The position numbers and the translations under genes were made by a program. A stretch of DNA of 64,000 nucleotides, from positions 5,394,001 to 5,458,000 of the forward strand of contig CP079215.1 of assembly GCA_019316985.1 (NCBI GenBank). Reading direction: 5' to 3'. This document shows, one piece after another, positions 2,815 through 62,299 of this stretch (position 1 is the first letter of the stretch; the number at the start of each line of letters is the position of its first letter). The stretch is from Paraniabella defluvii. GTDB taxonomy: Bacteria; Bacteroidota; Bacteroidia; Chitinophagales; Chitinophagaceae. The notes under the pieces were generated by a model. The model saw nothing but the letters and a program-made list of their open reading frames with translations, searched no databases and was not told the DNA's origin.

Positions 2815-3943
2815 CTATCTTTTTTGATAAATCTTTATTTGGTTGCCAGCCACCCGATATGTAACGGTGCTGGTAGCTTCAAACATTTTAAGCAGTTTTT
2901 GTACATTTTCTGTTCGTGGTATTCTACCACTAAAAGTGAGCCCTTTTAACCTGGGGTCGAGTTCTATACTTGCGTTATACCATCGGGATACCTGTCTCAT
3001 AATTTCAGATATCTCGGTTTGGTCAAAATCAAAATACCCGTTTTTCCATGCCATTACTTTCCCTACATCAATGCCGCTAATGGTTTCAATAGCCCTGCCG
3101 GCTCGTACCACCGTTTGTTGTCCCGGCCGTAGTATTACGTTTTTGCCCGAGAGCGGTGTCTGCACTTTTACACTCCCCTGTAGTAATGTGGTTTTAACAG
3201 TAGCCTCATCATCATAAGCGTTAACGTTGAAATGGGTACCTAAAACGGATATTTGCTGCCTGCCAGGTACTTCAACAATAAAAGGTTGGTTTTTATTATG
3301 CGTTACTTCGAAATACGTTTCTCCCTTTACAATAACTTTTCGCTCGGGGCCGGTAAACCTGGTTGGAAACCTGATGGAGGATACGGCATTTAACCACACC
3401 ATTGTACCATCCGGTAAACGAAGTTTGTAGCTCCCTCCTGCCGGTATGCTTACTTCGTTAAATTTTACTTCCTGGTTTGCCGATATACTGTTATAAGCAA
3501 TAGTGCCGTCTTTTAGTTTTACAATCTCAGAACCACCTTCGGAAGCAACATTTCCCGCTCCGGTGCTGTCTAACTCTATCACCGTACCATCATCCAGTTT
3601 AAGGAGGGCTTTTTCCGTACCGGGTACAATACTCCCTGTCACATTATGCGGGCGGGTTGGTAATATATATTGGTAAATAAGCGCACCAGCCAATATCAGT
3701 AGCAAAACGGCGGCTACCCTGAACAGCCAGCGAAAAGCAACTACAGGCTTGCTTTTGCGTTTTTTTATTTGTTTATGTATGCGGTTGTATATGTCGTCGC
3801 CTAGGGCATCAATATCTCTCCCCTCAAAATTATTCAGTTCTTCCACCTGCGCATACCATTTTTCTACATAAGCGGTTTCTAACGGAGATGCGTTACCTCT
3901 CTATATATTTATTGAGTATGGTTTTAAAGGCCTCTTTCGTCAT
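2815..3943 (-). CDS. FecR-family anti-sigma factor
   Basis: An inner-membrane anti-sigma regulator that passes the signal from an STN-bearing SusC to an ECF sigma factor. A long segment (2815-3846) shows one membrane helix (WLFRVAAVLLLILAGALIYQ), the FecR periplasmic core (PAGGSYKLRLPDGTMVWLNA, GETYFEVTHNKNQPF, VLGTHFNVNAY) and the C-terminal STN-like DUF4974 domain (WKNGYFDFDQTEISEIMRQV). The usual N-terminal cytoplasmic part is found upstream in another frame: MTKEAFKTILNKYIER from 3943, then NASPLETAYVEKWY, with one missing base near 3895. I therefore place the start at 3943 and not at the internal ATG at 3846. It lies between the sigma factor and SusC, the standard order. Confidence 0.94.
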
Positions 3944-14432: not shown

Positions 14433-14476
14433 TCATTGGTCTGGCACTTTCTCATTTGCCTGATCGGTATCCAATC

Positions 14477-15190
14477 TCAGGATGTTAGCCGCTTGCCCAC
14501 TCTTTCAAAATGAGGCGCCAGATGTTCTTTCATTCCTTTCCTGAAATCTTCGGGCTTCCCTTTTTAATCAGCTCCAGTAAATCGCGGTGAGTGACCTTGC
14601 CCACCTTGGCCTTACCGGTTAGCTTCTGCTCTTCTTTCACTACGTATTCAAACACAGGAGTAATATATTCTGAAAACGAAGAAAGGTGTCATTTCCCGTC
14701 ATCTGGTATAGCTTGCTATGAAAATCTATCTCAAACTTCAATCTGAAGGGTTGCTGGATCTTGTTCACTTCTTTCTCCACAATTCGTTCCAGTTCTTCAA
14801 TACCTTTACTGGTTACACGTGCAAATAACAGATCTGCCAGTCCCATTTCTAATACCAACCGCAGTTCAAAAAGGTCCTGGAGCGTTTTCTGGTCCAGCAA
14901 CAACGGATCCATCACGCGCTCAAAACCGTTCATTATATCAGGCTCAGCCAGAATGGTTCCCCGCTTTTTCTTCGATTCAATCATTCCCAACATACGCAGG
15001 CGGCTTAATGCCTCACGCACTACATTGCGGCTAACATCAAGCGCCTCGGCCAGCTCAATTCTTTAGGCAAAGCGTCTCCCGGTTTAAAAGCCTTCTTCTT
15101 TAAAAATTCTCTTAATCGCAGTTCCACCATATCGGCCATTGTGGCCGACTCTATCCTTTGAATGTCGTTACTGAGGTTTACATTAGCCAT
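14477..15190 (-). CDS. GntR family, FCD-type transcriptional regulator (probable sialic-acid repressor)
   Basis: A one-component regulator of about 237 residues. The N-terminal winged helix is read from 15190 (MANVNLSNDIQRIESATMAD) through LREFLKKKAFKPGDALPKE and ELAEALDVSRNVVREALSRL, with a missing base near 15062. The C-terminal all-helical FCD ligand domain has DLFELRLVLEMGLADLLFAR, FEIDFHSKLYQMTGN and, in the next frame, VTHRDLLELI ... KEHLAPHF (metal-site histidines), ending at the TGA at 14477-14479. It lies 129 bases downstream of four sialidase-locus genes on the same strand, with its own candidate operator at 15239-15253. It is the only regulator inside the sialic-acid locus, so it is the likely binder of the shared palindrome. 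The ligand (Neu5Ac or ManNAc derivative) is inferred. Confidence 0.9.
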
Positions 15191-15238
15191 ACGAAATATT
15201 GAAAATTTTTAATAAAACGAAAGTAGAATTATTTATGA

Positions 15239-15253
15239 ATATGTAGGACAAAA
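15239..15253 (-). promoter_or_regulatory. Candidate autoregulatory operator upstream of the GntR gene
   Basis: On the minus strand this reads TTTTGTCCTACATAT, matching 12 of 15 positions of the palindrome found upstream of the other sialic-acid units, with the TGTnnnACA core kept. It lies about 50 bases before the GntR start codon. A one-mismatch -7 box (CAAAAAGA on the plus strand, 15249-15256) overlaps it. This suggests autorepression. Confidence 0.55.
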
Positions 15254-27033: not shown

Positions 27034-28576
27034 TTATTTATTCTTATAATATTCCTTTTGCTGAAGCTTCGGATTATTTTCTATTTCCGTACGATGGTAG
27101 GGTAAAAACCAGCTTTCAGGGTTTAGCAACCTTGCCCTTATAACCTGGTATGAATATCCCATGGCATTATTGGTAGCCGACTTTGTGAGCAATACGTTTT
27201 GCAATCCGGCCCTTCTGGCGATTCTTACAGCGGCAAACCACTCCTTGCCCTCGAAACCCAGTTCAGCTTCTCTTTCCATTAAAAGCCTGCTGAAAAACTC
27301 CTCTCCTTCTCCCCTTCGCCCTGGTTTAACTTTGGAATGTTACAATGCTCCCTGATGAGGTTGATCATTTCTTCGGCTTCTGCATAGCGATTCAGCATCG
27401 CTAAAGCTTCGGCTTTCATCAGCATAATTCCCTGTACCTGTAAAGAATATAGTTCACGGTTCTGCGATCATTATTAGGCCGGTACGAGAGCTGGTACGCC
27501 TGCTGGCCCAGGAACTTATATACTTCAGCACCACCGCCATAACCATTAGCTATGCTGGTTCCCATACGATAACTGGCATACTCTTTAAACCTGATAGTAT
27601 CTGAACTGACATATCCGGGCAAAGAAGTGGGGTACAGAATTTCCGAATTGGCGAGTAACAGGTTGACAGGGTTTGCCAAATAGGTAGCTCCGCCGGTGGC
27701 AGTTGTAGAAAAATTAGCAAACCAATTATATACGGGCGAGGCGGGGCCTGTTTGCACATGCTGCAATTCGAAAATTGTTTCGGCCGAATTACCCGGGTTA
27801 AAAATGCTGTACCATTCTAATGGCGTTAATAACCTCGATTGATACTGCTGATCTAAAGGGGCACACATCGCCAAAACACCCTGGTAATCATTTTTCCAAA
27901 GCTTTACGTCGGCCCATAAAGCACGCACTGCATTTTTGGTGATCCTGCCGCAACGATAGGTTACTTCTTCAAAAGTTTCAGGCGCCTGTGCCAGTGCTGT
28001 AGTAAGATCGGCTTCAATCAGGTCTAATACTGCAGATTCAGCAGATGCCGCGGTATTCACCTGCTGGTTGTCCGACTCATAAGGTTCTGTAATAATGGGA
28101 ACTTCTTTAAACGCTCTCACCAGGTAAAAATAATTGAGCGCTCTTAGCCCGTAAGCTTCTCCCAGCATGGTTTTCAGCTCTTCTTCTTTAAAAGTAGGAT
28201 CATTGGTTAAGCCCAATGGCGCATTTTTGATAAAGGAATTGATCCACCCTATCGATTTATATACATTACTCCAGGAGAGCAAACCATTCTCCGGGTAAAT
28301 GTCATGCGACAGAAATTGCCCGTGATTCGTGGTAAACGCGTCGCCCGGACCGGGTTCATAGAGACTGGAACGAATATCGCCCCAAACCTGATAAGAGTTA
28401 AGGTTACCCTGCACAGAAGTATATAACCCCATTAATGACGCAAATACCTGGTTCCGGTTTTGCCAGAATTCGTTATGCACCAGGTTATCCGGCACATCTA
28501 CTTCCAGCAGTTTATTACAGGAAACAGACAGGGTGATGATTACAATGAGTAGGCAGTATTTTATTTTTGCTGTCAT
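27034..28576 (-). CDS. SusD/RagB-family surface glycan-binding lipoprotein
   Basis: A SusD homologue of about 514 residues. Lipobox TLSVSC (C20) then NKLLEVDVPDNLVHNEFWQN. Family landmarks are WSNVYKSIGWINSFIKNAPL, GEAYGLRALNYFYLVRAFKE with VPII, AVRALWADVKLWKNDY, and at the C-terminus EREAELGFEGKEWFAAVRIA and LNPESWFLPYHRTEIENNPK. Two frameshifts lie near 27440 and 27310. It follows its SusC partner by 50 bases. It shares only family-level similarity with the SusD at 21191, so the two importers probably handle different glycans. Confidence 0.93.
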
Positions 28577-28626: not shown

Positions 28627-31600
28627 CTAAAATCCTATATTCAGCCCTAATGTATATTGCCTTGGAGGAGCGGTAGTGGCATTATCTATACCAAATAAAT
28701 ACACACTGCCGGTAATCGGAACTTCCGGGTCCAGCCCGAGGTAACGCGTCCAGGTGTACAAATTATACCCTGTAACAAAAAGCTGAGCTGGCGCACTCCT
28801 AACCCGATTTTTCTTACGAATTCCTTACCGGCGGTATAGGTTAAGGACACTGTTTTTAAACGCAGGTAGGATCCGTCTTCTACCCAACGTGTTGATGCTG
28901 CCGCATTCCATGAGTTATCGGGTTGTGCTCTTGGTATTTCTGTAACGTCACCCTGGCGTCTCCAACGTGCCAGTACAGACTGCGACTGGTTATGAGAAAC
29001 CGTCATTCGCTCCATATACTGGCGGGTAGCATTAATAATATCGTTACCGGTTTGGTATTGCAGGTTCAGCGTTACGATCCAGTTCCGGTAATTGAAAGTA
29101 TTATTCCATCCGCCAAAGAACTGGGGACTGGCATCACCTATCTGTACACGATCCAGCTCATTAATTACCCCATCGCCGTTAATATCCGCATAGATCATAT
29201 CGCCTCCTTTAAACTGGCGGCCGGTAGCAGAACCATAACGCATATATTTGGGCGTAATGCCATCTGCCTCGTAAATGGTATTGCCTTGGGCATCCTTTAA
29301 TATAGCATCGTCATCACGCGAGTATACTCCCAATGCTTTATATCCGTAAAATGCGCCTACAACATCGCCTTCCTGTAGCTTAGATGTAAAACCAGACTGG
29401 CTTACCGTAAACGCGTTAGCATCAAAAAGCTCCGGTAATTTTATAATCCTGTTGCGGTTGGTAGCAATATTGAAAAAGACTTCCATCGCAATTTCGTATC
29501 GCTACCTTTCAGGATAATGCCGGTTATCCCCAGCTCCCAACCAGCGTTGCGAACGGTTCCAAAGTTGATATACTGCGATGCATAGCCTAAGGTGGAAGAT
29601 AGCCGCTCCTGTAATAAAAGATTATTCGTAGTTCTGGAATAAAAGTCGAGCTGGCCGGTAAGCCTGTCCTTAAAAAAGCTCCAGTCTAAACCAAGATTGT
29701 ATTCGGAGGTGCGCTCTTCCCTGATATTATCATTAGCGAATTTAGAAGGATACGTATAGGTTTGACCAAGATAACCGGTTCCGGTGCCATAGGCAATATC
29801 ATACAGGTTATTCAGCCTGGGCAAATTTCCTGTAACGCCATAAGCAAACCTTGGCTTTATAAAAGTGATCCATTCAGCATCTGCTAAAAAAAGACTCTTT
29901 ACTTATTTCCCAGGCGCCGCCAATGGCAGGAAAAACAGAGTAAGGGTTATCGGCGCCGTATCTTGAATCGCCTTCTGTTTTTCCGGTAACCGTCAGGAAG
30001 TAACGATCCTTCATGGCGTAATGCCCCTGCACAAACATGCCCAGGTATTTCGATGTGCCGTAGCTACCTGTAGCCGCAGATATAATCGCAGCAGCGTCTG
30101 CCGATTTCAATTGAGGGGAAGCGCTATTATAGTATTGAATCTCCGTAGAATTATTCCTGTCTATGTTATAGGTAAGCACCCTGTAAAGGTAAGACGATGG
30201 TCTTTCTGCCTGAGCGCCGACCAGGTTAAACGGTTATTGCTGTTGATCATGAGCTGGTAACCTTCCGTTTGCAAACCGGCATTATACAGCACTTCCCCGG
30301 GCAGGGCATCTGTTGCATAGCCTGGCAAAAATATTCATCAGCCGATTCCTGAAATCGGTTGATACCTGCGCCCTGAAATCGATATTGCTACGTATTTTAA
30401 AATCTACCGAAGTGGATGCCATAAAACGATTGGCCCTGGTGAAATAAGTAGAGTAATCGATCAATGCTAGCGGGTTATACCTGGAGTGTGAAGAAATGGT
30501 AATATTACGATCCAGGAAATAATTTAAACCATTACGTGAGTATACGGGGAAATAGGCAGGAATCTGCCTGGCCAACAACAATGGGTTGAGCTCCTGGCTA
30601 CCATTGGTAATAGGATGTTCCTGACCTCTTTTGTCGGTTAACGAATTGGTATAATTAAGATCGGCTGTAACTTTAAACCTGTCTGAAACTTTATAGTTCA
30701 AATTAAACCGCGTGTTAAATCTGTCATAACCGGTTCCTTTTGTGGTTCCGTATTGATTGGCATAACCCAGGCCCCAGTAATAGTTGATCCTGTCGCCGCC
30801 GCCGCTCAGCGCCGTATTGTACTGTTGAAAATCCCTTTCCTGGTAATAACATCTGTCCAGTCGGTATTATTATTAAAGATCCAGGCGTCCGAACGGGTTA
30901 AATCACCTCTCAGCTAAAAAAAGGAAGTACCATTATCTAACCCTCCGGTAGTTTTTTCAATATAATAAATACGTTGCTCATCGCCCGACAACATAGGAAT
31001 GGTCCGGGGCACTTCCGTTAAGGTAAATTTTGTGTTAACCTGCAGCTGGGCCTTTCCCTTTTTACCGCGTTTGGTTTGAATAACGATTACGCCGTTCGCT
31101 CCTCTTGATCCATATAACGCAGTGGCAGAGGCATCTTTTAAAATATCTATTGAAGCGATATCCGACGGATCAAGATCACCAATAGGGCTGAAACCGAAAT
31201 CGGTAATACTGGCTACCTGGTAGTTATTACCGATGATCTCCGCGCCATCCACAATCCACAAAGGATCGTTCATACCCGAGATACTTGAAATGCCCCTGAT
31301 GCGTATACTGGCAGCGGCACCCGGTCGCCGCTGGCCGACACTACCTGCAAACCCGGCGCCATACCTTGCAACAACTGTTCTACATTTACTACAGGCATCT
31401 TCTCCGTATTCTCCAGGTCTACCGAAGCCACGGCACTCGACAATTCTCTTTTATCAATGCTTAAAAATCCCAGGTCGGCCTTTTTCTGAACGGTCGACAC
31501 CACTTTCACAATCTCCATCGAACTGCTGTCTTCCGAAAGGTAAATGGTAAAAAACGTCTGAGTGCCTATTTCTTTTTCCTGGGTCTGGTATCCCATATTC

Positions 31601-31846
31601 GAAAACACTACTTTACTGCCGCCTTTTGAGTTGACAATTTCAAACTTCCCCTCTTCATTGGTTTTATTGCCATTTAGCGCCAGGTTGTTGGCATTTACAA
31701 TCATTACAGAAACATCCGGTAACGGCTTTCCCCGTTTTTATCGTATACAACGCCCTAAGCACCGTTCCATCCTGCGCCTTTAAAGCCAGGCCTGCCACCA
31801 GGAAAAAGAGAACCGCTATACCTTTATAGAAAAAGTTTTCGTTCAT
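28627..31846 (-). CDS. SusC/RagA-type TonB-dependent receptor
   Basis: A full-type SusC of about 1070 residues. The signal peptide (FFYKGIAVLFFLVAGLALKA) is followed by a CarboxypepD_reg-like domain (DKNGKAVTGVSVMIVNANNL, GGSKVVFSNMGYQTQ), a plug (MPVVNVEQLLQGMAPGLQVV, NDPLWIVDGAEIIGNNY, ASIDILKDASATALYGSRGA) and a barrel (NYKVSDRFKVTADLNYTN, GHYAMKDRYFLTVTGKTEGD, GDMIYADINGDGVINELDRV), ending QYTLGLNIGF at 28627. The start at 31846 is favoured; an ATG at 31861 is possible. Roughly eight frameshifts are present. It has no STN domain, unlike the receptor at the left edge, which fits control by GntR and not by sigma/FecR. Confidence 0.92.
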
Positions 31847-31868
31847 GACTTTGAAAAGCATTTAGTTT

Positions 31869-33802
31869 TTAAAATACGCTATTGATTTTGTGGATGACCC
31901 CGTTACTCCCCTGCGTATTAGATGCAACAGGTTTAACTGTTTTTCCTGCGGTGTTGGTCACTGCAAAATTTTCCCACCGGCCTGCAACTGTTAGCAGCTC
32001 CCCGTTTTTATTAGCAATCTGGCCGTTAAAATCACCGTCGGTAAAAACATAACGGTTGGGAATGATATAAGACTGAACAAAGTTTCTTAGTTCGGTTGCG
32101 TTTAAAGCGGCTACATTAATACCTGCTGCTGTGATGGCGGCATTTCTTGGCGCTATTACTGTGTAAGTAAAAAAGCCTGTCAATTGTAACTGTGAGGCGA
32201 TACCGGATCGATCCAGTGCCGAAATATAAAGAGACAGCTCGGGATCCTTTTTCATGAGGTTGTACACCGTTATGGTATCGTTGAGTTTATCGAGCGGTTT
32301 CAGGAAGCCATCGATACCATAGATAGCGCCGTTAGAAGCTTCCCACTCAGGTGCCGAAGATACCAGATTTACCGAATTCCCGGTATAATCGTAAAACTTA
32401 CCGGCATCGTAAAGGATGTATCCAAAATTGGTTGGATAGAATTTTTGCGAAATCCCCGTCGGCACGCACATCGATATTAAAGATGCCGGCTTTACATTGC
32501 TGCACCCTGTACAGCCGGTCAACGTCAAGCATATCCTCTGCCAGGGGAAACCCCACACTTCATCCGACTGTATCAAAACCGTTTTAGGGCTATGCTGGTA
32601 ATATTGCCAATCGAACAACCCGTCGCTCAGGCCAGCATTCAGGAACATCCAGTACCACTGACTGAATTTTTGTACTTTAAGTAAACGCCCCTACCACGCT
32701 GTTCATTTCGGGAGATTCAATCAGCTTGTTTACCTTATAAATAAAACTATTGCTCGCATGTACCGATCCGGTTATAATGGAAGGAACATCTGCAATCATA
32801 CGTGAATAGCCTGAAATAGATTTCCAATCGGGATCCAGACGCTTCAGATCACTTTTATACCAGAGGTTTTCTATAAGAGCCGACCTGATCAGGGTATACA
32901 TAACTCTCCTGGGTACCGAATCAATAGTATTATCAATATATTGTAAATAGGGCTGAAAGTATTTACGGATGGCTTCGTTGGTTGGGGCTAAAACGGTAGA
33001 CAAAACGGACTCATTTGCGAGGTTTCTGCCAAAGAAAAAGATTTGTACAAGGTAGTATCTACCCAGCCAAATTCATCTTTTTCACCCAATTCAAATTGCA
33101 CATGCTTTTCGATCCATGAACTGAAAATAGAGGTTTCGGGATCTGCGGCCAGCGCTTCATCTGTTCGGGGTGCAATATTTAACGGAGCCGCCAGAACATG
33201 TATCACCCCGTTACTGGCATCTAAATCGGGTTCTGCAATAGCTACTCCTTCTATCATAAAGCTTTTGCCTTCTTCCGGCGCGCCATAAAGAGTAACATAG
33301 TCTTCCTGCTGGATTTGCAAAAATGAGCCTGAAAAAGTCTGATGCGCTTACCCGGGTTGTTACCTTCTGTGCGGGTGGTAAAATTGGTAGTCCTCGATTT
33401 AGTAATTAAGGATGTTGCATTATTATATAGCTTATTAATATCATACTCGTAATACATCCCATTGATGAAATGATAATTTACATATCGCCTCGAAACATCA
33501 CCAGGCATTGACTCAACAGAGCTATAGCCCAGCTTCGTTAAATAAGCGGTTACCTGCTGATCGGTTGGGGCAAGGCAGGTATACATGGCTGACGAACCCA
33601 GCGTTTTTCTTAAACCGGCTTTGTCTATCATCTTAACAAACAAAGAGAAGCGCCCGTCTGCCTCCAGCACTTCTACAATATTTTTATCCAGAGCGCCCTT
33701 CGGGTTGTAATACTGGTTTAATTCCTTAGCACAGGAAGCCAGTAAAAAATTACCTAACAGGCATGCATATAAAATAATGTGCAGCTTTCGAACCATTTTC
33801 AT
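31869..33802 (-). CDS. Fasciclin-domain lipoprotein (first gene of the SusCD operon)
   Basis: A lipoprotein of about 640 residues with several FAS1-like modules. Start at 33802 or 33796, lipobox NFLLASC (C24 from the second ATG). Module segments are DGRFSLFVKMIDKAGLRKTL with MYTCLAPTDQQVTAYL, VNYHFINGMYY, MSTVLAPTNEAIRKYFQPYL, GIDGFLKPLDKLNDTITVYN, GFFTYTVIAPRNAAITAAGI and, at the end, GKTVKPVASNTQGSNGVIHK. It lies 22 bases ahead of SusC and about 180 bases behind the best promoter in the locus, so it is promoter-proximal. A role as a cell-surface glycan binder is inferred from position. Frameshifts occur near 33360, 33000, 32660 and 32480. Confidence 0.87.
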
Positions 33803-33975: not shown

Positions 33976-33990
33976 TAATGTTCTACAAAA
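33976..33990 (-). promoter_or_regulatory. Candidate GntR operator over the SusCD-operon promoter
   Basis: TAATGTTCTACAAAA on the plus strand matches 13 of 15 positions of the palindrome TTATGTTCTACATAA, and the TGTTCTACA core is exact. It shares its right-hand five bases with the -7 box at 33986-33993, so a bound repressor would block polymerase. Confidence 0.65.
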
Positions 33991-34015
33991 TTATAGTCCC
34001 CATCTGTCATCCAAA
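33986..34015 (-). promoter_or_regulatory. Bacteroidota-type promoter of the fasciclin/SusC/SusD/sialidase operon
   Basis: On the minus strand there is TTTG (34015-34012), 18 bases, then TAATTTTG (33993-33986), matching the TTTG / TAnnTTTG consensus of the primary Bacteroidota sigma factor. Transcription would start near 33980, giving a leader of about 180 bases before the fasciclin start. Confidence 0.6.
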
Positions 34016-34121: not shown

Positions 34122-35355
34122 TTAATCCTCCCGTTCCTGAACAGCAGGTTTTAAAACCGACAGCTGAACGATCAATACGATCAGCACCACGCCCGACACC
34201 AATGCAAAATCACGCCCCAGGTGACCTTCATCTGACGATTTACCCAGCATCCCGGTGATAAAAGCACCAAAAATACTCCTGTCATATTCATCAATCCATA
34301 CGCCGTAGCCCGGTACCGCGCGGGCACAAACTGACATAGTATGGGCATGTTATTAGCATCGAACATGCCGAAGCCAATACCAAATAAAACCGCCGCAAGG
34401 ATCAAAACAAATGTGGTATTACCAAAACCTAATAATAAAATGGCAGGGATTGTTAAAAATACACCTATGGCACTGGTGTATACGCGTGCTTTTATATTTT
34501 TTTGCACCCATTTATCAGAAATAATTCCGCCCATGATTACTCCCAGGAACGAGGACGCTGCAATGGTGATAGTAGCTATCGGACCGGCGATTGCCATATC
34601 TATTCCCAGGCTATCGGAAAACAATGTAGGAAGCCAGTTCTTGGTAGCCCACCCCGGTAAACTGGGCATTGCAAAATAGAATAGGATCACCCAGAAAGAC
34701 AGGTTGCTGAAAAGCCATCCTACGCCTTTTAGTATATTATTGTTTGTTGGCTGGGGAATGGCAATATTCTGAAGGGGCTGCGTTCTTTTCTCTTTCAGAA
34801 ATAAGGCCAGTACAATTGCATATACTATACCCACCAAACCGAAAAGATAAAAAGTCTGGTGCCAGGAATATGCTTTGGCGAAAGTGGCGCCGAAACCGCC
34901 CAGTGCCTGGCCAAAATACAAACCAGTCATATGGATACCAATTGCCAGCGACCTTGTTTTAGATGTATGATAATCGGCTATCAGCGACAAGGCGGCCGGT
35001 ATATAAACCGCCTCACTTAGGCCCATGATGCCGCGCAACCATTTCAGTTGAGCAAACGAATCTGCAAAACCCATAAGACAGGTAACAGCCGACCAAACGA
35101 AGAGGCTGAATACGATCAGCCATTTACGGTTCGCCCTGTCTGCTATTAGGCCCGATACGGGGCTCATGAATCCATAGATCCACAAAAGATGGACATCAGA
35201 ATACCAAAGGTTTCCGCGCTTTGTAATTCTTCAATATCTATTTGCATAGCCGGCCGCATAGTGGAGAGCATTTGCCGGTCGAGGTAGTTGAGCAGGCCTA
35301 CGAACCAAAGCAGGCCTACTACCATCCACTTGTATTTAGGGTTGTCTGTGATCAT
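34122..35355 (-). CDS. nanT: MFS transporter, probable sialic-acid importer
   Basis: A 12-helix major facilitator of about 411 residues in the inner membrane. It starts MITDNPKYKWMVVGLLWFVG with LLNYLDRQMLSTMRP, and has the MFS signature after helix 2 (GLIADRANRKWLIVFSLFVW), GIMGLSEAVYIPAALSLIAD (helix 4), GVIMGGIISDKWVQKNIKAR between helices 8 and 9, and QFVPARYRATAYGLMNMTG. Two missing bases (near 35180 and 34220) split it; the last helix reads ALVSGVVLIVLIVQLSVLKP. It follows N-acetylneuraminate lyase by 40 bases. Bacteroidota sialic-acid loci use an MFS NanT, so N-acetylneuraminate/proton symport is the best guess; the substrate is inferred. Confidence 0.85.
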
Positions 35356-35395: not shown

Positions 35396-36345
35396 CTATG
35401 CTACCCGGGCAGCGGCTGTGTTTGATTTCCTGGCCTGCTCCAGCGTTTCAAAAAATAAGATCTCGTCAAGGTATGTCTTCAGGTCGGCAGACTGAACTTC
35501 GTTCAAAGCCACCAAAGGCAACCGGCAGCCGCCAAGGTCGAGACCCGTTAATTTTAATATCTGTTTTTGAGTAGGGATAGGAGGATATTTTCCCAGCACC
35601 CTGATCATTTTTATACAGTCGAATTGTGCAGCAGCCGCTTCTTTAATTTTTTTCTGGTTGAACAGCTCAATGACTTTATGATACATAGGTGCTGCAAAAC
35701 TATAAGTGCTTCCAATTGCGGCTTTTGCCCCAATGGCCAGTGCAGGCAACAATAATTCATCATACCCGAATAAAATATCATACTTCCCATTCTTATAATT
35801 CAGGCAATCCTGGTATTCATGTAAGGTATTGGCAGTATATTTAATACCTGCCAGATTCGGTATCCGGGCTTCAGCCTGTTTCAGGAAATCGACCATACCT
35901 ATGGTTAACCCGTAACGGACGGAATATGATAATAGTAAAAGGGAAGACCGGGAGCTGCCGCCGCAATATGGGTCATACAATCGGCCAGGTTTTCAGCAGA
36001 CTGGGGTTTGAAATAAAATGCTGATACAGCAGAAATGGCATCGGCACCGGCTTCCTGCGCGTGCGCTGCCAGCTTGCAGGCTTCTTTGATGGAACTATGT
36101 CCCACATGGGCAAATATTAATATGCGTTTGTTAGCGGCCCGCACGTAAGCCTCGGTTGTGGCCATGCGTTCTTCGGTAGAAAGGCTTAACCCTTCCCCAT
36201 TGGTACCCCCAACAAAAATGCCCTTCACACCGTCAGCAATTAACCGCTCTACCACCTGCGGTACAAGGTTCAGCTTCAATTCTTTGCTTTCGTCAAATGT
36301 ACTAAACGTCGCTGCAAGCAGCCCTTCAAGTTTATTAATTTCCAT
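35396..36345 (-). CDS. nanA: N-acetylneuraminate lyase
   Basis: A class I aldolase of the DHDPS superfamily that splits N-acetylneuraminate into ManNAc and pyruvate. About 316 residues. Start MEINKLEGLLAATFSTFDES. Signature motifs: VKGIFVGGTNGEGLSLSTEE (the GTxGE loop), YYYHIPSVTG (active-site Tyr), LAGIKYTANTLHEYQ (Schiff-base Lys) and DILFGYDELLLPALAIGAKA with GSTYS. A single-base shift near 35925 splits it right after IPSVTG. It lies between the NanH sialidase and the MFS transporter. The order and motifs make this the most confident catabolic assignment in the locus. Confidence 0.94.
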
Positions 36346-36437: not shown

Positions 36438-38102
36438 TTATTTCATGATTTCGCTGATGTTTATCTTTTCAAAAATGAGGTGCGCCTGGCTGCCTTCATA
36501 TATCACCCCTATAGTGTCATTATCAACAGATGTAATACAGGAATAGCCGCTGCCACTAAATTCGTCCAGCAAAATAAATTGATCTGCAGGCCATGTATTA
36601 CCATCATCCTGGCTCACTTTTAATGTTAATTGATTACGTTTGGAAGTTGAATTGGGATTAAAGAATAACAGCACATTTTTTTGCTGCCGTCTTTGGCTTT
36701 GTACACATGTTTGTATAAACTGCCCATACAAACCGGTTCAGGTAATGCATTGCGCGAAGTTTGATGCACCACCCATGTTTTCCCCATATCTTTTGTTATT
36801 GCTACGGCACGACCGTTGCCGGGCCCTGTAAGCTCCTTGTTGGCATTCGTTCGCATATTCAGCATGATCGAACCATCAGTTAGCTGAGCTGCCATGCACT
36901 CGGTTGTTGACAGATCATAAGCCGGGCTGCTAGTCACCCAGGTTTCACCTCTGTCTCTGCTGTAAGTTATAGTAGAAAAGGCTTTGCCGGTTTTATCGCG
37001 TCCCTGCGTGGGAAACACTAATGTGCCGTCATCCATGGTAAAGCCGCTTCCCGGTGCGGGTGCCCAAAGCCACCACTCTTCCTTCTTGCACATTTTGGTC
37101 AGGTTTACCGGCTGTGACCATGTCTTGCCATTATCGGTACTTTTAACCAATAAGAACTGGGCAGTTTGTTTGATATCAAATCCCGGCTGCGAGCCTTTGC
37201 TCCTCCATTGATGGTTCCAGTTAGTGCTCGTATCAGTAAGCCCTTCTGTCCATTTACCTTTATCATCCAATACCCCATGCATCCAAAGCCCGGCCACAAA
37301 AATATTCCCGTTTTTTTATCTACCAGTATGCAGGGATCCGATACGCCGTTAAACTTTTCAGGCAAACCATTAAAGGTACCCATATCGATAATCTTTTGCA
37401 ATGGCAACCAGCTGTTACCTTTATCGGTACTTCTGTTTAACGCAATATCAATATCCCTGCAAGTCCCTGCGCGAATCGTAACGGGCGTCGTAGATAGCCA
37501 GCAGATCACCATTAAGCGCAGTAGCCAATCCAGGTATCCTGGAAGTATGCACGTTATCCTGCATAAACTGGCGAACGGCACTGGCAATACGATAAGTAAA
37601 GGGCTGCGGCAGATCTTTTTTATGGGAAGATCATCTATTACAAGGCCCGATATCCCGATCTTTATTTTATTGCCAACTATAGCCGACTCTTTTACATCAA
37701 CACCAATCCATATGTAGTTTTTTGTTTTGGACAATCTTAAATTGCCATTCAGCGTAACGGTATTGCCAATAACAGTGGGGTGCTGCTATTAAAAAGCGGT
37801 GCCTTCAACGTTGATTCCTCCAACAGGTAGGAACTATCGGTGTTACAATAAACTTTAATACTGCTTATATCTTTTACATCAGTTGACCCGTCGAAGCTGA
37901 GCACCAGTTGTTTCAGGTATTGGGCAGCTGTTGCAGCACCCGGTATAATTTCGGTACGTGATACTATAACGACACCACGCTCTTTTATAACCGGTATCGT
38001 AAAATTTCTATGATTCAATCTGATATCCTGGGCAAGCAAGGCAGACGAATGGCATACCGTTAATACCATCAAAAATCCTCCTATAATACGTGTAAGATTC
38101 AT
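36438..38102 (-). CDS. nanH: Exo-alpha-sialidase of the Bacteroides NanH type (GH33)
   Basis: A secreted sialidase of about 555 residues. The signal peptide (GGFLMVLTVCHSSALLAQ) leads to an N-terminal beta domain typical of the Bacteroides enzyme (NYIWIGVDVKESAIVGNKIK), then the propeller with the arginine motif HTSRIPGLATALNGDLLAIY and DARYDSRRDLQGDIDIALNR, Asp boxes RSTDKGNSW, STDNGKTW, SRDRGETW and SQDDGNTW, and TECMAAQLTDGSIMLNMRTN (acid/nucleophile region). The C-terminal GYSCITSVDNDTIGVIYEGS carries the catalytic Tyr and Glu. Frameshifts occur near 37745, 37610, 37490, 37280 and 36690. It leads the unit NanH-lyase-MFS, with an operator and -7 box about 200 bases upstream. Confidence 0.93.
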
Positions 38103-38289: not shown

Positions 38290-38312
38290 TTATGTTCTAC
38301 ATAACAAATGTA
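38290..38312 (-). promoter_or_regulatory. Perfect palindromic operator abutting a -7 box, upstream of NanH-NanA-MFS
   Basis: TTATGTTCTACATAA (38290-38304) is a perfect inverted repeat of TTATGT around TCT, identical to the site at 41466. Directly next to it on the plus strand is CAAATGTA (38305-38312), which is TACATTTG on the minus strand, a TAnnTTTG box. A weak ATTG lies 20 bases further upstream. The transcription start would fall inside the palindrome. Confidence 0.65.
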
Positions 38313-38349
38313 TATTTTATTTTAGATTATAGCAATTTTTTTTTAATTT

Positions 38350-39303
38350 TCAGAAAACATGATCCTGGTTTTGATCCAGAAACCAGCCCGGCAGATGTTG
38401 TTGCGCTCCTTTACGCACTGCCTGCACATCTGCTTCCGCAATCCAGGAATAAGGCCATCGTAAACGGGTGCCCACTGGCGCCCAGGCGCCTGCGGCAGCC
38501 AAAAGCTTGTCCAGCGCCGGGTTACTAAAACCCTTTTGGGCATAGGGCATAATATAAGCCTCGAAGAACGACTGAATAGCATTTTGAACCCGCAGTGCTT
38601 CGGTTATATCCGTTTGCATTAATTGCCACCATCGCTGTGCCGCCCGCGGGTTGATACACGCTACATTAGAATAAGCCCCGGCTGCCACCCCGTGTTGCAT
38701 CCCGGTAGCAAGATGATGCCCGGGCACAAATATGGCAGCCCGGCCGGCTAAAGGCTTCATTTGTTCGTACCATTGCAGATTCCCGTCCGATAGCTTTACA
38801 CTAATCAATGCCGGTACGGCATCAAACAGGCGCTGATATGAAGCGGGAGATAAAACCCTTTTAGCGTGGGGAGGGTTGTATAATACCAGCGGAACAGGAT
38901 GGGCTTCTTTCGATATTCCGCCCAAAAAATCTCGGGCTTCCTCATCTGTAAGGGCCACCCAATCGGGAAGAATAACCTGGTATGCTGAGGGTTTTAACAT
39001 ACGGGTACGCCTGATCCGGTCGAGCATAACTACCGGTACACTGTGTGAAATGCCGATCTGGAAAGGCATATTCGCTGCGTTGCACTTCTCCGCCAGTAGC
39101 TGGCTCACCTGGTCTAACTCAGTCTCTGTTTGGGTATGAAATTCGCCCGCCGTACCATTGGAATAAATACCATCGACAGCAGCCGCAATCAAAGCATCGA
39201 TTTCTACAGATAGCCTGCTGAAGTCTATACTGTTATCGGGCTCAATAGGTAGTAAGAGCGTGCCCCAGTTACCTTTGCATGTATCTTTATGTAAGGGTTG
39301 CAT
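38350..39303 (-). CDS. Second DHDPS/NAL-superfamily aldolase
   Basis: A 317-residue uninterrupted class I aldolase, clearly a different subfamily from the lyase at 35396. Motifs: DGIYSNGTAGEFHTQTETEL (GTxGE-like loop), PLVLYNPPHAKRV (active-site Tyr) and ALISVKLSDGNLQWYEQM (Schiff-base Lys). The N-terminus WGTLLLPIEPDNSIDFSRLS matches the family start. It lies between the mutarotase and NanH, inside the sialic-acid locus. It may handle another nonulosonate (for example KDN or an O-acetylated form) or a different 2-keto-3-deoxy acid; the sequence does not decide. Confidence 0.88.
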   Translation of the reverse strand: MQPLHKDTCKGNWGTLLLPIEPDNSIDFSRLSVEIDALIAAAVDGIYSNGTAGEFHTQTETELDQVSQLLAEKCNAANMPFQIGISHSVPVVMLDRIRRTRMLKPSAYQVILPDWVALTDEEARDFLGGISKEAHPVPLVLYNPPHAKRVLSPASYQRLFDAVPALISVKLSDGNLQWYEQMKPLAGRAAIFVPGHHLATGMQHGVAAGAYSNVACINPRAAQRWWQLMQTDITEALRVQNAIQSFFEAYIMPYAQKGFSNPALDKLLAAAGAWAPVGTRLRWPYSWIAEADVQAVRKGAQQHLPGWFLDQNQDHVF

Positions 39304-39335: not shown

Positions 39336-40450
39336 TTATTGCGGATGGGCTACTAAAACCCGGTTAGTGCGTACGCCGGGCCTGGCCTCTCCTGGGGAAT
39401 GATAATAGTATGATTCCATACAACCAGCGGTGTGGTAACGGGTGCCCAGGTACTGGCTAACGGGTTATTTTCCGGGTTGGGTTGCAGATCGGTAAAAACA
39501 TTGCCGGATATCGTCCATTCATCCTTCTTTGTATTATAGGTCAGAATTTCTGTACGAAAACCAGGGTGTTTATCCTTAAGGATAGCGTTCTGCTCTGCAC
39601 GACTGCCATCGTCGCCACCAAAAACAAATAGCTGTCCGCTGTAGGTATAAGCGGGTGTTGGGGCTGCAGCTACAGCATGTGGCAGCTCCTTTATTTTTCT
39701 CCATCCCTTTTCCTGATTGTATACAAAGGCATCTGCGAGGTATCGCCGGTGTACCGCGGAATCATCCGGGGAAATAAACAGGCTGACGCCACTTAACAGG
39801 TACAACTCGCCATTAACCTGCCCGGCAACGCTTAGCATGCACCCTTCGCCCGGCCACGGTGGAAGCGTTGTCCAAACCAGTTTCTCCTGGGTTGATTTAA
39901 GTCCAGCTTCCAGAAAATATGCTCAGCCGATGAAGCCGCCGGGGAGGATAGTCCGCCTGCTACATAAACGATATTGTCGATAATCACCCCGCAGGAATTT
40001 GCCAGGGGATGAGGCAGAGAAGGCAAACTATCCAACAATAACTGCTCCTTATTGTAGCTAATAAAATAAACATTTCTAAAGTGCTGTGTTTGGTTCGCTC
40101 CTCCTATCAATAACAGGCCATCATTCCAGTTAAGAGAAACTCCATATCCATCGCCTGCGGAAGCTTCCCGATTTCTTTCCAGCTTTTTTTTTTTTTTTAT
40201 CCATGGCCATTATCTTATCGTTCCATGATTTTACGCCACCCGACCAGGGCCGTGTACCTTCAGGAAACTGCGATCCTCCGGCTACAATAAGATGATCATT
40301 GCTTACACCGGCGTAAGCCCCGGCAAAGCCAACTTTATCCGGCACAGGAGGTAACTGCGACCATTGAAAAAAAAGGACTGGCTTTTTCGGCTGTTTTGCA
40401 GGATGACATCATTATTATAATAATTATCAGGAAAACCGGTCTCTATTCAT
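39336..40450 (-). CDS. nanM: Kelch-repeat N-acetylneuraminate mutarotase (NanM/YjhT-like)
   Basis: A six-bladed kelch propeller of about 370 residues that equilibrates alpha and beta sialic acid after sialidase action. The start at 40450 (MNRDRF) with one shift gives LIIIIMMSSC, a lipobox, then QWSQLPPVPDKVGFAGAYAG and HLIVAGGSQFPEG-RPWSGG. Repeats show LLLIGGANQTQHF, IVYVAGGLSS, LYLLSGVSLF and LFVFGGDDGSRAEQ. The end, after an inserted-base shift, reads ARPGVRTNRVLVAHPQ, a close typical of Bacteroidota NanM. A 15-base T run at 40184-40198 sits in a Lys-rich stretch. It is 28 bases after the esterase stop. Shifts also occur near 40430, 40365, 40140 and 39840. Confidence 0.88.
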
Positions 40451-40478: not shown

Positions 40479-41441
40479 TTATTCCGGCTGCAGCCATTGG
40501 TTGGCCTCCATCCAGTTCATACATCTTTGAAACCAATCGTCCTTATTGGTTCTATTGTGCAGCCCATAACCATGTCCCCTGCACCGTAAATATGCATCTC
40601 CGCTTTTACACCGGCTTTTATTAAAGCCTGGTAATAGGCAATACTGTTGCCAACCGGTACCACCTTATCATCGGAGCTGTGCAGCAGGAAAGCTGGTGGT
40701 GTAAGCGCTGTTATCTGTTTCTCGTTAGAGTAAAGGTTTATCGCTGCTGAGCTGGTTGTATCTTTTCCCAGCAAGGCTCTTCTCGAACCTTTGTGGCTCA
40801 GGCTATCTACAAAACTAATCACCGGATAAACGAGTATCGAAAAATCGGGGCGTAAACTCGTTCCCCGATTGTTGGCTATAACGCTGGTAGTAAAATGTGT
40901 AGACGCAGTTGAAGCAAGATGACCACCGGCAGAAAATCCTATGATGCCGATTCGACCCGGGTTTATATTCCACTCTGCCGCTTTTTCTCTTATCAGCTTA
41001 ATAGCCTGTTGCGCGTCTTGTAGCGGGCCAATGGTTTTATTAAGCATTATTTTTTTCGTTGGGTAGCCTGTATTTCAATACAAAAGCAGCTACTCCGTTC
41101 CGGGCAAAAGCTTCCGCTACTTCACTGCCCTCCTGGTTCATCACCAGGTAAGAGTAACCACCACCTGGGCAAATAACTACCGCCGTGCCATTGGCTTTGC
41201 CCTTTTCCGGTAAATAAGCTGTCAGCGTAGGATGGGTTATATTCCTGGCTAAAATACGGCCATTAGAGGTCGTATCCCATTTTTCAATCAACCCGGTTGA
41301 AGCAATAGCGTTCGGAACGGTACTATACAGCGGGATAATCTGTTGGGCCGTGCTGTTTGCGGGACAAAGGCTCAGGATTGAGCCGGTAACTAAAGCGAAT
41401 AAGAAGAGAGCAAAAGAAGGCTTCCTTTTCATAACAAGCAT
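40479..41441 (-). CDS. Secreted alpha/beta-hydrolase esterase (acetylesterase-like)
   Basis: A secreted esterase of about 320 residues. The signal peptide (SFALFLFALVTGSILSLC) is followed by AVVICPGGGYSYLVMNQEG (oxyanion loop), FVLKYRLP, RIGIIGFSAGGHLASTA (nucleophile Ser in GFSAGG), LLHSSDDKVVPVGNSIAYY (catalytic Asp) and, in the next frame, YGAGGHGYGLHNRTN (catalytic His), ending ANQWLQPE at 40479. All three triad residues are therefore present. It resembles the acetylxylan-esterase/BD-FAE group. As the first gene of the esterase-NanM-aldolase unit, with an operator just upstream, removal of O-acetyl groups from sialic acids is a reasonable inference; xylan-type activity is the alternative. 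Frameshifts occur near 41045 and 40580. Confidence 0.87.
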
Positions 41442-41465: not shown

Positions 41466-41480
41466 TTATGTTCTACATAA
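41466..41480 (-). promoter_or_regulatory. Perfect palindromic operator upstream of esterase-NanM-aldolase
   Basis: A second exact copy of TTATGTTCTACATAA, 25 bases before the esterase ATG at 41441. No good TAnnTTTG box adjoins it here, so the promoter itself is unclear. Exact identity with the 38290 site in another intergenic region of the same locus is the main evidence. Confidence 0.65.
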
Positions 41481-60798: not shown

Positions 60799-62299
60799 AT
60801 GGATAGTCCAATTACAAAGAGCCTTTTTAGCCGTATAGGGCTGAATACATCGTTGCAGCGGCCGGTATACCTGCAACTTTCCGATGCTATACTTTTGCTG
60901 ATAAAACAGGGAAAGATAAAAAGCGGGCAAAAGCTCCCTCCATCAAGAAGCATGGCCACCCTATTGGGTATTAACCGCATTACAGTTTCAAAAGCAATAG
61001 ACGAATTGCAGATGCAGGGATGGCTGGAAAGTTTTGTAGGGCGCGGAACTTTTGTATCTGCCCACATACCTGAGTCAGATCCTAAAAAGCTGGCTTCGCA
61101 GGGTGTTCATCAACCGCAGCAAATAGCAGGGTTTGCTATAAACATGCCTGAGCATCTGCAAAATACAGTCTTTGTGCCTCACGCAGCACTTCACCTCGAC
61201 GATGGATATCCCGATCCCAAACTGGCGCCTTTAAAGAGCTGTACCGCGCCTACCGTAATCAGCTTACACGCGGCGGACTCTATTACAAGTTTGGCAGTTA
61301 CGGCAGCCCTGCCGGCCCGGAGCTTTATACGAACGCTATATCGCGCTATCTGAATGAAAGCAGGGGATTAAAAACCGGCGCAAAGAATATATTATCAGTT
61401 CGCGGAACATTGATGGGCATTAACCTGGTTTGCAATGCCCTTATTCAACCCGGCGATATCATTGTTTCAGGGGTTCCGGGATGGAAAAGGGCCGAGCATA
61501 ACTTTATACATGCAAAAGCAAATCATATAGGCATACCGGTAGATAAGCATGGCCTGGTAGTAGAAGAATTGAAAAAGATCTGCAAGAGGCGAAAAGTAAG
61601 AATGGTATATGTTACTCCTCATCATCATTACCCCACAACCGTTTCCCTGCGTATTGACCGCAGGTTGGAATTGTTGCAATTAGCAAATCAATATGGCTTC
61701 TTTATTTTTGAGGATGATTATGATTTTGATTTTCATTATAATTACCGGCCGCTGCTGCCCTGGCCAGTGCAGATGAGAGCGGGATGGTGATTTATTGCGG
61801 ATCGTTTAGTAAATGTTTTCTCCGGCTTTCCGTATGGGTTACCTGGCAGCGCCTGAAAATATTATTACCCACCTGGCTAATACCCGTGTGCTGCTCGACC
61901 GCCAGGGCGATCATATACTGGATAATGCTATGGCCGAACTATTGAACGATGGAACGGTGTACCGTTTTATCAGGAAAGCGTTGACAATATACGGGAAAAG
62001 GCGCGATCATTTTTGCAACCTGCTTAAAGATGAATTAAACGGTATAACAGACTTTTCAGTGCCCGAAGGCGGCATGACGGTATGGGCACGGTTTGATGCA
62101 TCAATTCACCTCGAAGAGCTGGCCCGGCAGGCTTATAAAAAGGTCTTTATTTTTCAGACGGCTTTTTGCACCGTTATACCGGCTACTGCGAAAACGCTAC
62201 CCGGCTCGGGTTTGCATCTGCATCCCCGAAGAGCTCACGCAAAGCGTATCGATCATAAAAAAGCTGATTCATATAAAATACGCCGGCCTTAAACAGTAG
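60799..62299 (+). CDS. MocR/PdxR-type GntR regulator with aminotransferase domain
   Basis: A PLP-dependent regulator of about 500 residues. The N-terminal GntR winged helix is QRPVYLQLSDAILLLIKQGK, KLPPSRSMATLLGINRITVS and WLESFVGRGTFVS. The class I aminotransferase fold follows: ELYRAYRNQLTRGGLYYKFG with GSPAGPELYTNAISRYLNES, LVCNALIQPGDIIVSGVPGW, MVYVTPHHHYPTTVSLRIDR, YGFFIFEDDYDFDFHYNYRP and the PLP-lysine region IYCGSFSK then MGYLAAPENIITHL. Shifts lie near 61235, 61765, 61810 and 62145. It is divergent from paiA across 134 bases. MocR proteins usually control the divergent neighbour, so paiAB is the likely target. Confidence 0.93.

Follow-up and report, generated by a model that had tools for sequence, protein, structure and literature searches.

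We consider it quite probable that the palindromic sites preceding three gene groups in the analysed window (the whole stretch of 64,000 nucleotides of the Paraniabella defluvii genome, contig CP079215.1, positions 5,394,001 to 5,458,000) are operators of an FCD-type GntR repressor (FadR subfamily, NanR-like) encoded in the same window at about 14474-15190, which would act by steric block of the promoters and be released by an inducer. The proposed mechanism comprises the following steps: (i) a repressor dimer on the palindrome would cover the -7 box of primary-sigma promoters (TTTG/TAnnTTTG), their start site, or both, (ii) RNA polymerase would be unable to bind or initiate in the presence of the bound dimer, and (iii) the inducer, a sugar acid and most likely sialic acid or one of its catabolites, would bind the FCD domain, upon which the repressor would be released. 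The promoters blocked in this way would be those of the SusC/D import operon (operator at 33976) and of the sialidase-NanA-MFS operon (38290), whereas the third one, at 41466, is probable and less clear. The regulator probably also represses its own gene via a site located 13 nt upstream of its -7-like box.

The gene groups behind the three operators are all encoded on the minus strand (Table 1). The operator at 41466 precedes genes for an alpha/beta hydrolase, a NanM-like mutarotase and a DHDPS-family aldolase; the operator at 38290 precedes a BNR sialidase-like gene, a NanA-like aldolase and an MFS transporter; and the operator at 33976 is followed by a fasciclin-domain protein, SusC, a NanU-like SusD and further genes. 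Based on gene order and strand, each group is predicted to form a single operon. Frame shifts are abundant between 14474 and 41432 of the window: the genes for the regulator, the aldolase, the transporters and the sialidase-like protein, all intact in the close relative G119, are interrupted in this assembly.

Table 1. Predicted regulatory elements and genes of the locus, in window coordinates.
Feature	Coordinates	Strand	Remark
Operator copy TTTTGTAGAACATTA	33976..33990	-	2 mismatches vs palindrome
-7 box TAATTTTG	33986..33993	-	5-base overlap with operator
-33 element TTTG	34012..34015	-	N18 from -7 box
Perfect palindromic operator TTATGTAGAACATAA	38290..38304	-	
-7 box TACATTTG	38305..38312	-	abuts operator at 38290
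Possible -33 element TTG	38333..38335	-	N20; direct reading
Perfect palindromic operator TTATGTAGAACATAA	41466..41480	-	without exact TAnnTTTG box nearby
Alpha/beta-hydrolase, esterase-like	40517..41432	-	first gene behind operator 41466
NanM-like kelch mutarotase	39353..40440	-	broken frames, approximate limits; matches below cut-off
Second DHDPS/NAL-family aldolase	38350..39303	-	
BNR/Asp-box sialidase-like protein	36441..38102	-	first behind operator 38290; broken frames
N-acetylneuraminate lyase-like aldolase (NanA)	35396..36345	-	broken frames; NCBIfam below cut-off
MFS transporter	34125..35355	-	broken frames, approximate limits
Fasciclin-domain lipoprotein	31869..33802	-	first behind operator 33976; broken frames
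SusC-like TonB-dependent transporter	28686..31850	-	broken frames, approximate limits; orthologue in G119
SusD-like lipoprotein	27037..28576	-	approximate limits; best NCBIfam match NanU, below cut-off
FadR-subfamily (GntR HTH + FCD) regulator gene	14474..15190	-	frame-shifted in assembly, end approximate
Putative autoregulatory operator TTTTGTCCTACATAT	15239..15253	-	2 mismatches outside centre; ~50 bp upstream of gntR start
-7-like box TACTTTCG (5/6)	15218..15225	-	13 nt downstream of gntR operator

The content of these gene groups suggests that the locus is likely to serve sialic-acid scavenging. This assignment is likely rather than proven, since NanA, NanM and NanU are best matches that all score below the curated cut-offs and the sialidase-like protein behind the 38290-type operator in G119 lacks the YRIP motif, which is found in one of the three sialidase-like proteins of that genome (sialidase2). 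For the esterase-like hydrolase, a role as sialate esterase is a guess. Outside the window, an N-acylglucosamine 2-epimerase-like gene (PF07221) is matched in two pieces at C1:4037233-4038214, about 12 kb from a second FCD-GntR pair, and the genome contains no further PF07221 match.

The palindrome TTATGT-NNN-ACATAA is present in the window as exact copies at 38290 and 41466 and as a two-mismatch copy at 33976, the latter with counterparts in G119, N. hibiscisoli, N. ginsengisoli, N. aurantiaca (G277) and G022. TGTTCTACA has four copies in the window compared with 0.38 expected, and four or more copies were obtained in none of 100 shuffles. The fourth copy, at 31376, was rejected as an operator: it lies within the susC reading frame, is non-palindromic and is missing from the G119 stretch (L065) that holds the respective susC, and is thus probably a chance occurrence. 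With up to three mismatches, TTATGTTCTACATAA has seven matches in the window vs 3.26 expected, and one of 100 shuffles reached seven. The exact TTATGTNNNACATAA occurs in three places of the 6.13 Mb genome: two are window sites, and the third lies some 0.5 kb away from the second FCD-GntR pair. The exact composite of TAnnTTTG and TTATGTNNNACATAA has a single genomic occurrence, in the window. When one mismatch was allowed, no enrichment was found for ATGTNNNACAT in the window (23 vs 30.4 expected) or for TTATGTNNNACATAA in the genome (30 vs 41 for the reversed control), and the composite with up to two mismatches gave three matches in the genome, the same as for the reversed control. Since relaxed versions of the motif do not exceed chance expectation, the case rests on the exact copies, their position and their conservation.

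Additional sites of this type were observed elsewhere in the same genome. A one-mismatch operator, TTAAGTTCTACATAA, is located at C1:957339 (L009) upstream of another SusC gene, and the second FCD-GntR pair has its own cluster of similar sites (C1:4050353-4053193; L001, L019), in which the copy TTATGTCATACTTAA stands directly 3' of a TAATTTTA box, in the same register as at 38290.

The primary-sigma (sigma-ABfr type) promoter consensus (PMC7366714) consists of a TAnnTTTG -7 box and a TTTG near -33. Both elements are present at 33976, where on the minus strand TTTG is separated by N18 from TAATTTTG, the last five bases of which are the first five of TTTTGTAGAACATTA. At 38290-38312, TACATTTG is followed at once by TTATGTAGAACATAA on the minus strand; this promoter has the exact -7 box alone, the -33-like element being merely a TTG at N20. 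The original prediction had described the promoter at 33976, the sharing of five bases between its -7 box and the palindrome copy, and the perfect palindrome abutting the -7 box at 38290, and all three are seen by direct reading. The site at 41466, on which the original prediction made no claim, does not share this arrangement: no exact TAnnTTTG box was found within the 80 nt before it and the 60 nt after it, and the 5/6 box TATTTTTA located 5 nt downstream in the window is missing from G119. Thus, one operon of the three lacks a convincing -7 box and stays outside the simple picture.

The contact between box and operator is conserved in orthologous promoters. For each of the two promoters we compared six sequences, which we chose for the presence of an orthologous first gene; the locus L122, with a 43% identical fasciclin homologue, was left outside the fasciclin set. 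The abutting geometry is retained in all six sialidase-like promoters, and the five-base overlap in all six fasciclin/SusC promoters, five with an exact box and one with a single mismatch. In five relatives, the 23 nt of box and operator of the sialidase-like promoter are 96-100% identical to the window, compared with 40-56% for the 50 nt upstream (ungapped in both cases); for the fasciclin/SusC promoter, the 23-nt core is 61-91% identical vs 24-40% upstream. The TTTG at -33 of the 33976 promoter is inexact in G119. Niabella aurantiaca has this promoter-operator element twice in tandem before the fasciclin/SusC genes (L098:16938 and 17127), and the five-base overlap is also kept in the second copy (L098:16938).

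To describe the contact in more diverged loci, we used target sites with up to one mismatch; sites located more than 90 bp inside reading frames and pairs with unnamed genes were dropped before counting, two-mismatch sites were left out of the target sets, and sites directed towards gntR genes were counted apart. Among the 42 target rows obtained, window and G119 included, an exact TAnnTTTG ends at the base directly before the operator in 13, and a 5/6-or-better box is found there in 23. Merging of similar promoters reduced the set to 28 rows including the window and G119, with an exact box directly before the operator in 8 and a 5/6-or-better box in 14, and to 26 rows without these two genomes. 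Half of the latter (13/26) have an exact -7 box 0-3 nt upstream of the operator, compared with a mean of 0.13 and a maximum of 2 in 2000 Markov controls; the other half has no exact box at offsets -3 to 0. The exact boxes occupy three registers (eight at offset 0, two at -2 and three at -3), and in 11 of the 13 targets TTTG or TTG is found 15 to 24 nt upstream of the box. The box therefore slides among a few registers and yet remains in touch with the operator, a pattern that favours two separate elements joined by function.

The position of an operator over a -7 box or a start is typical for transcriptional block, and most members of the regulator's family are repressors. Some GntR-family proteins are activators, and a candidate regulator that activates, or both represses and activates, would be in line with the 41466 copy, which has no exact -7 box nearby; we consider such a role improbable, since in the two named promoters the operator lies over the -7 box or the expected start and this contact is kept in relatives. 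Steric repression rather than activation, as proposed in the original prediction, is thus the best-supported reading: we infer it from the geometry, given that the contact is kept in orthologous promoters and recurs at few registers in diverged loci, and that the regulator belongs to a family with known repressors.

The window gene at 14474-15190, which the original prediction had not named, likely encodes the regulator of these operators, judging from sequence comparison. The genome contains four FCD matches, one of which, at this gene, lies within the window. The window copy with its broken frames scores 37.1 bits for the N-terminal GntR winged helix and 41.5 and 40 bits for the C-terminal FCD domain, and the intact orthologue L067 scores 62.3 and 62.6 bits, respectively, all over the cut-offs; the orthologue in G119 is intact and 93% identical to the joined query. 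NanR (PRK03837) is the best NCBIfam match of L067, at 106.7 bits compared with a cut-off of 260. In a profile search of solved structures, which lists NanR and PdhR by name as repressors, the profile A1 matched E. coli NanR (PDB 6on4, 6wfq, 6wg7) over nearly the whole length with an E value of 4.6e-19. Residues H157, H201, H223 and E114 are invariant in all 19 aligned homologues, an alignment that leaves aside the frame-shifted window copy; the three histidines align with histidines of E. coli NanR, and we take them to be the metal-binding histidines of the FCD domain. A second gene with a GntR HTH and no FCD match is present in the window at 60799-61353.

The putative autoregulatory operator TTTTGTCCTACATAT has an identical copy in G119. 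In five of the 26 gntR-directed rows, which take in divergent sites whose main target is another gene, the operator is followed 13 or 16 nt downstream by an exact box, and in a further three (window, G119 and L067) by a 5/6 box at 13 nt; the remainder has no common register. These sites also bear on the possibility that the palindromes work as an RNA hairpin in the mRNA leader rather than as DNA operators, as their expected position at transcript 5' ends might suggest. We regard a hairpin as highly improbable, since the 33976 element overlaps the promoter box, some gntR genes have the element upstream of their box, and a 15-nt A/T-rich palindrome with a 3-nt loop would be expected to form a weak hairpin.

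Homologues of the regulator at an E value of 1e-20 or better were found in 97 of the 394 family genomes and are at least 51% identical in 38 of them; by a threshold of our own choice, the genomes with such a homologue (at least 51% identical) are called carriers. Forty stretches were analysed, which represent G119 together with 36 other loci that surround a regulator homologue. In 31 of these loci the regulator is at least 51% identical; by our tally, 27 of the 31 have an operator copy with up to one mismatch, and the remaining four (L075, L076, L084 and L086) have a symmetric two-mismatch copy; in an extra stretch, the susC promoter of L076 has a symmetric two-mismatch copy abutting TATTTTTG. 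The five less related loci include two with exact copies that have other central triplets (L102, L103), two with two-mismatch copies (L099, L101) and one, L100, in which no operator copy was found.

At the level of whole genomes, the exact nan-type operator TTATGTAGNACATAA is present in 24 of the 38 carriers vs 18 of the 356 others (Fisher 1.1e-17), counts that are not independent events because the genomes are related, the Fisher test ignoring phylogeny. Accordingly, an exact nan-type site is missing from 14 carriers and present in 18 genomes that have no regulator above the threshold. Most operator copies in carriers (23/34) are located within 30 kb of the regulator, eight being on another contig and three far away. 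Nan-type loci have 36 distinct sites with no more than one mismatch; when reverse complements are counted together, their central triplets are ACT (17), AGA (11), AGG (4), CCC (2) and AAT (2). A central-triplet code (AGN for nan-type sites vs other FCD regulators) was considered and rejected; it is a tendency alone, with two sites coming from other loci.

Scanning of a named genome collection with the exact composite identified 56 stretches, 52 of which belong to Bacteroidota by title, the others being three Clostridia MAGs and one stretch labelled Actinomyces. A homologue of a gene of this locus was detected by blastp on the fetched DNA in 43 of the 56 stretches, and a homologue of this GntR protein in 26. 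In six stretches (L105, L106, L114, L132, L139 and L153), a LysR-family gene follows the composite at a distance of 9-45 nt, perhaps an unrelated use of the same architecture; in two, by eye, the composite precedes a gene for a glycine-rich protein. The pattern is A/T-rich, so some of the collection matches will be due to chance. In our estimate, the odds are even that the fused cassette, with TAnnTTTG at a few fixed registers (0, 2 or 3 nt before, or overlapping by five bases) on TTATGT-NNN-ACATAA, is a type of repressor-controlled promoter that is widespread in Bacteroidota and serves mainly FCD-GntR regulators of sugar-acid/sialic-acid loci, with further occurrences before LysR-family genes. 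If true, repressed promoters and their regulators would be predictable from DNA alone.

The LysR-associated matches would also fit sites that belong to another factor, either a LysR-type protein or a Bacteroides Crp-like global regulator, with the FCD-GntR gene as an incidental neighbour. The Crp-like motif wwwTATGTTnTAnAACATAwww, as given in PMC3878776, has similar half-sites; however, it has six bases between TATGT and ACATA compared with three here, and a Crp-like site (TATGTTnTAnAACATA spacing) was ruled out on this ground. Moreover, the sites follow the FCD-GntR gene across genomes, are present before gntR genes too, and share 26 of the 56 composite stretches with a homologue of this protein, which makes ownership by another factor a doubtful, improbable reading.

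The proposed control of the operators by the FCD-GntR repressor would differ from the HTCS and sigma/FecR modes with which the original prediction had contrasted it. Locally this contrast holds: no Y_Y_Y match, the domain indicative of HTCS control, was found in the window, and the single FecR match (3166-3453) is separated from the three operators by about 30 kb and from the gntR site by 12 kb. The case is nevertheless less exceptional than had been implied, because GntR repression of polysaccharide-use genes is already known in Bacteroidota. The results suggest that some SusC/D loci can do without HTCS, SusR or sigma/FecR control. They provide a likely regulator, an operator and an exact promoter geometry recurring in many genomes, and thereby a testable model for the switching of a sialic-acid locus in Chitinophagaceae.

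The known example is AusR of Zobellia galactanivorans, which is described in a review (PMC8286568) as a GntR repressor of alginate catabolism relieved by breakdown products; it shares with the regulator proposed here the family and the control of polysaccharide-use genes, and differs in the substrate. The switch is therefore of a familiar kind, and the point of interest is the fusion of promoter and operator into one cassette, which accompanies GntR genes in several lineages of Bacteroidota. We found no account of FCD-GntR control of sialic-acid loci in Chitinophagaceae in the open-licence papers searched. The predicted regulator of sialic acid use in Bacteroides thetaiotaomicron, NanR (BT0433), belongs to the ROK family (PMC3878776), whereas our candidate is a GntR protein. 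E. coli NanR is similar in its near-full-length sequence match and in its sialic-acid context; however, it binds direct repeats TGGTATAW (PMC4494728), whereas the sites described here are inverted repeats forming a GT-N3-AC palindrome. We therefore class the candidate as a new FadR-subfamily member, likely a repressor, rather than as an E. coli NanR orthologue. Few regulons of this subfamily seem to have been charted in Bacteroidota, judging from this one survey (PMC4494728), which has 0 Bacteroidetes among 634 factors. In the same source, the operators of FadR, PdhR, LldR, DgoR and ExuR have three nucleotides between GT and AC, and this GT-N3-AC consensus of the subfamily is matched by the putative operator TTATGT-NNN-ACATAA at 38290, at 41466 and in the loci of relatives; unlike in the other FadR-subfamily regulons, the promoters at this locus carry the Bacteroidota TAnnTTTG box.
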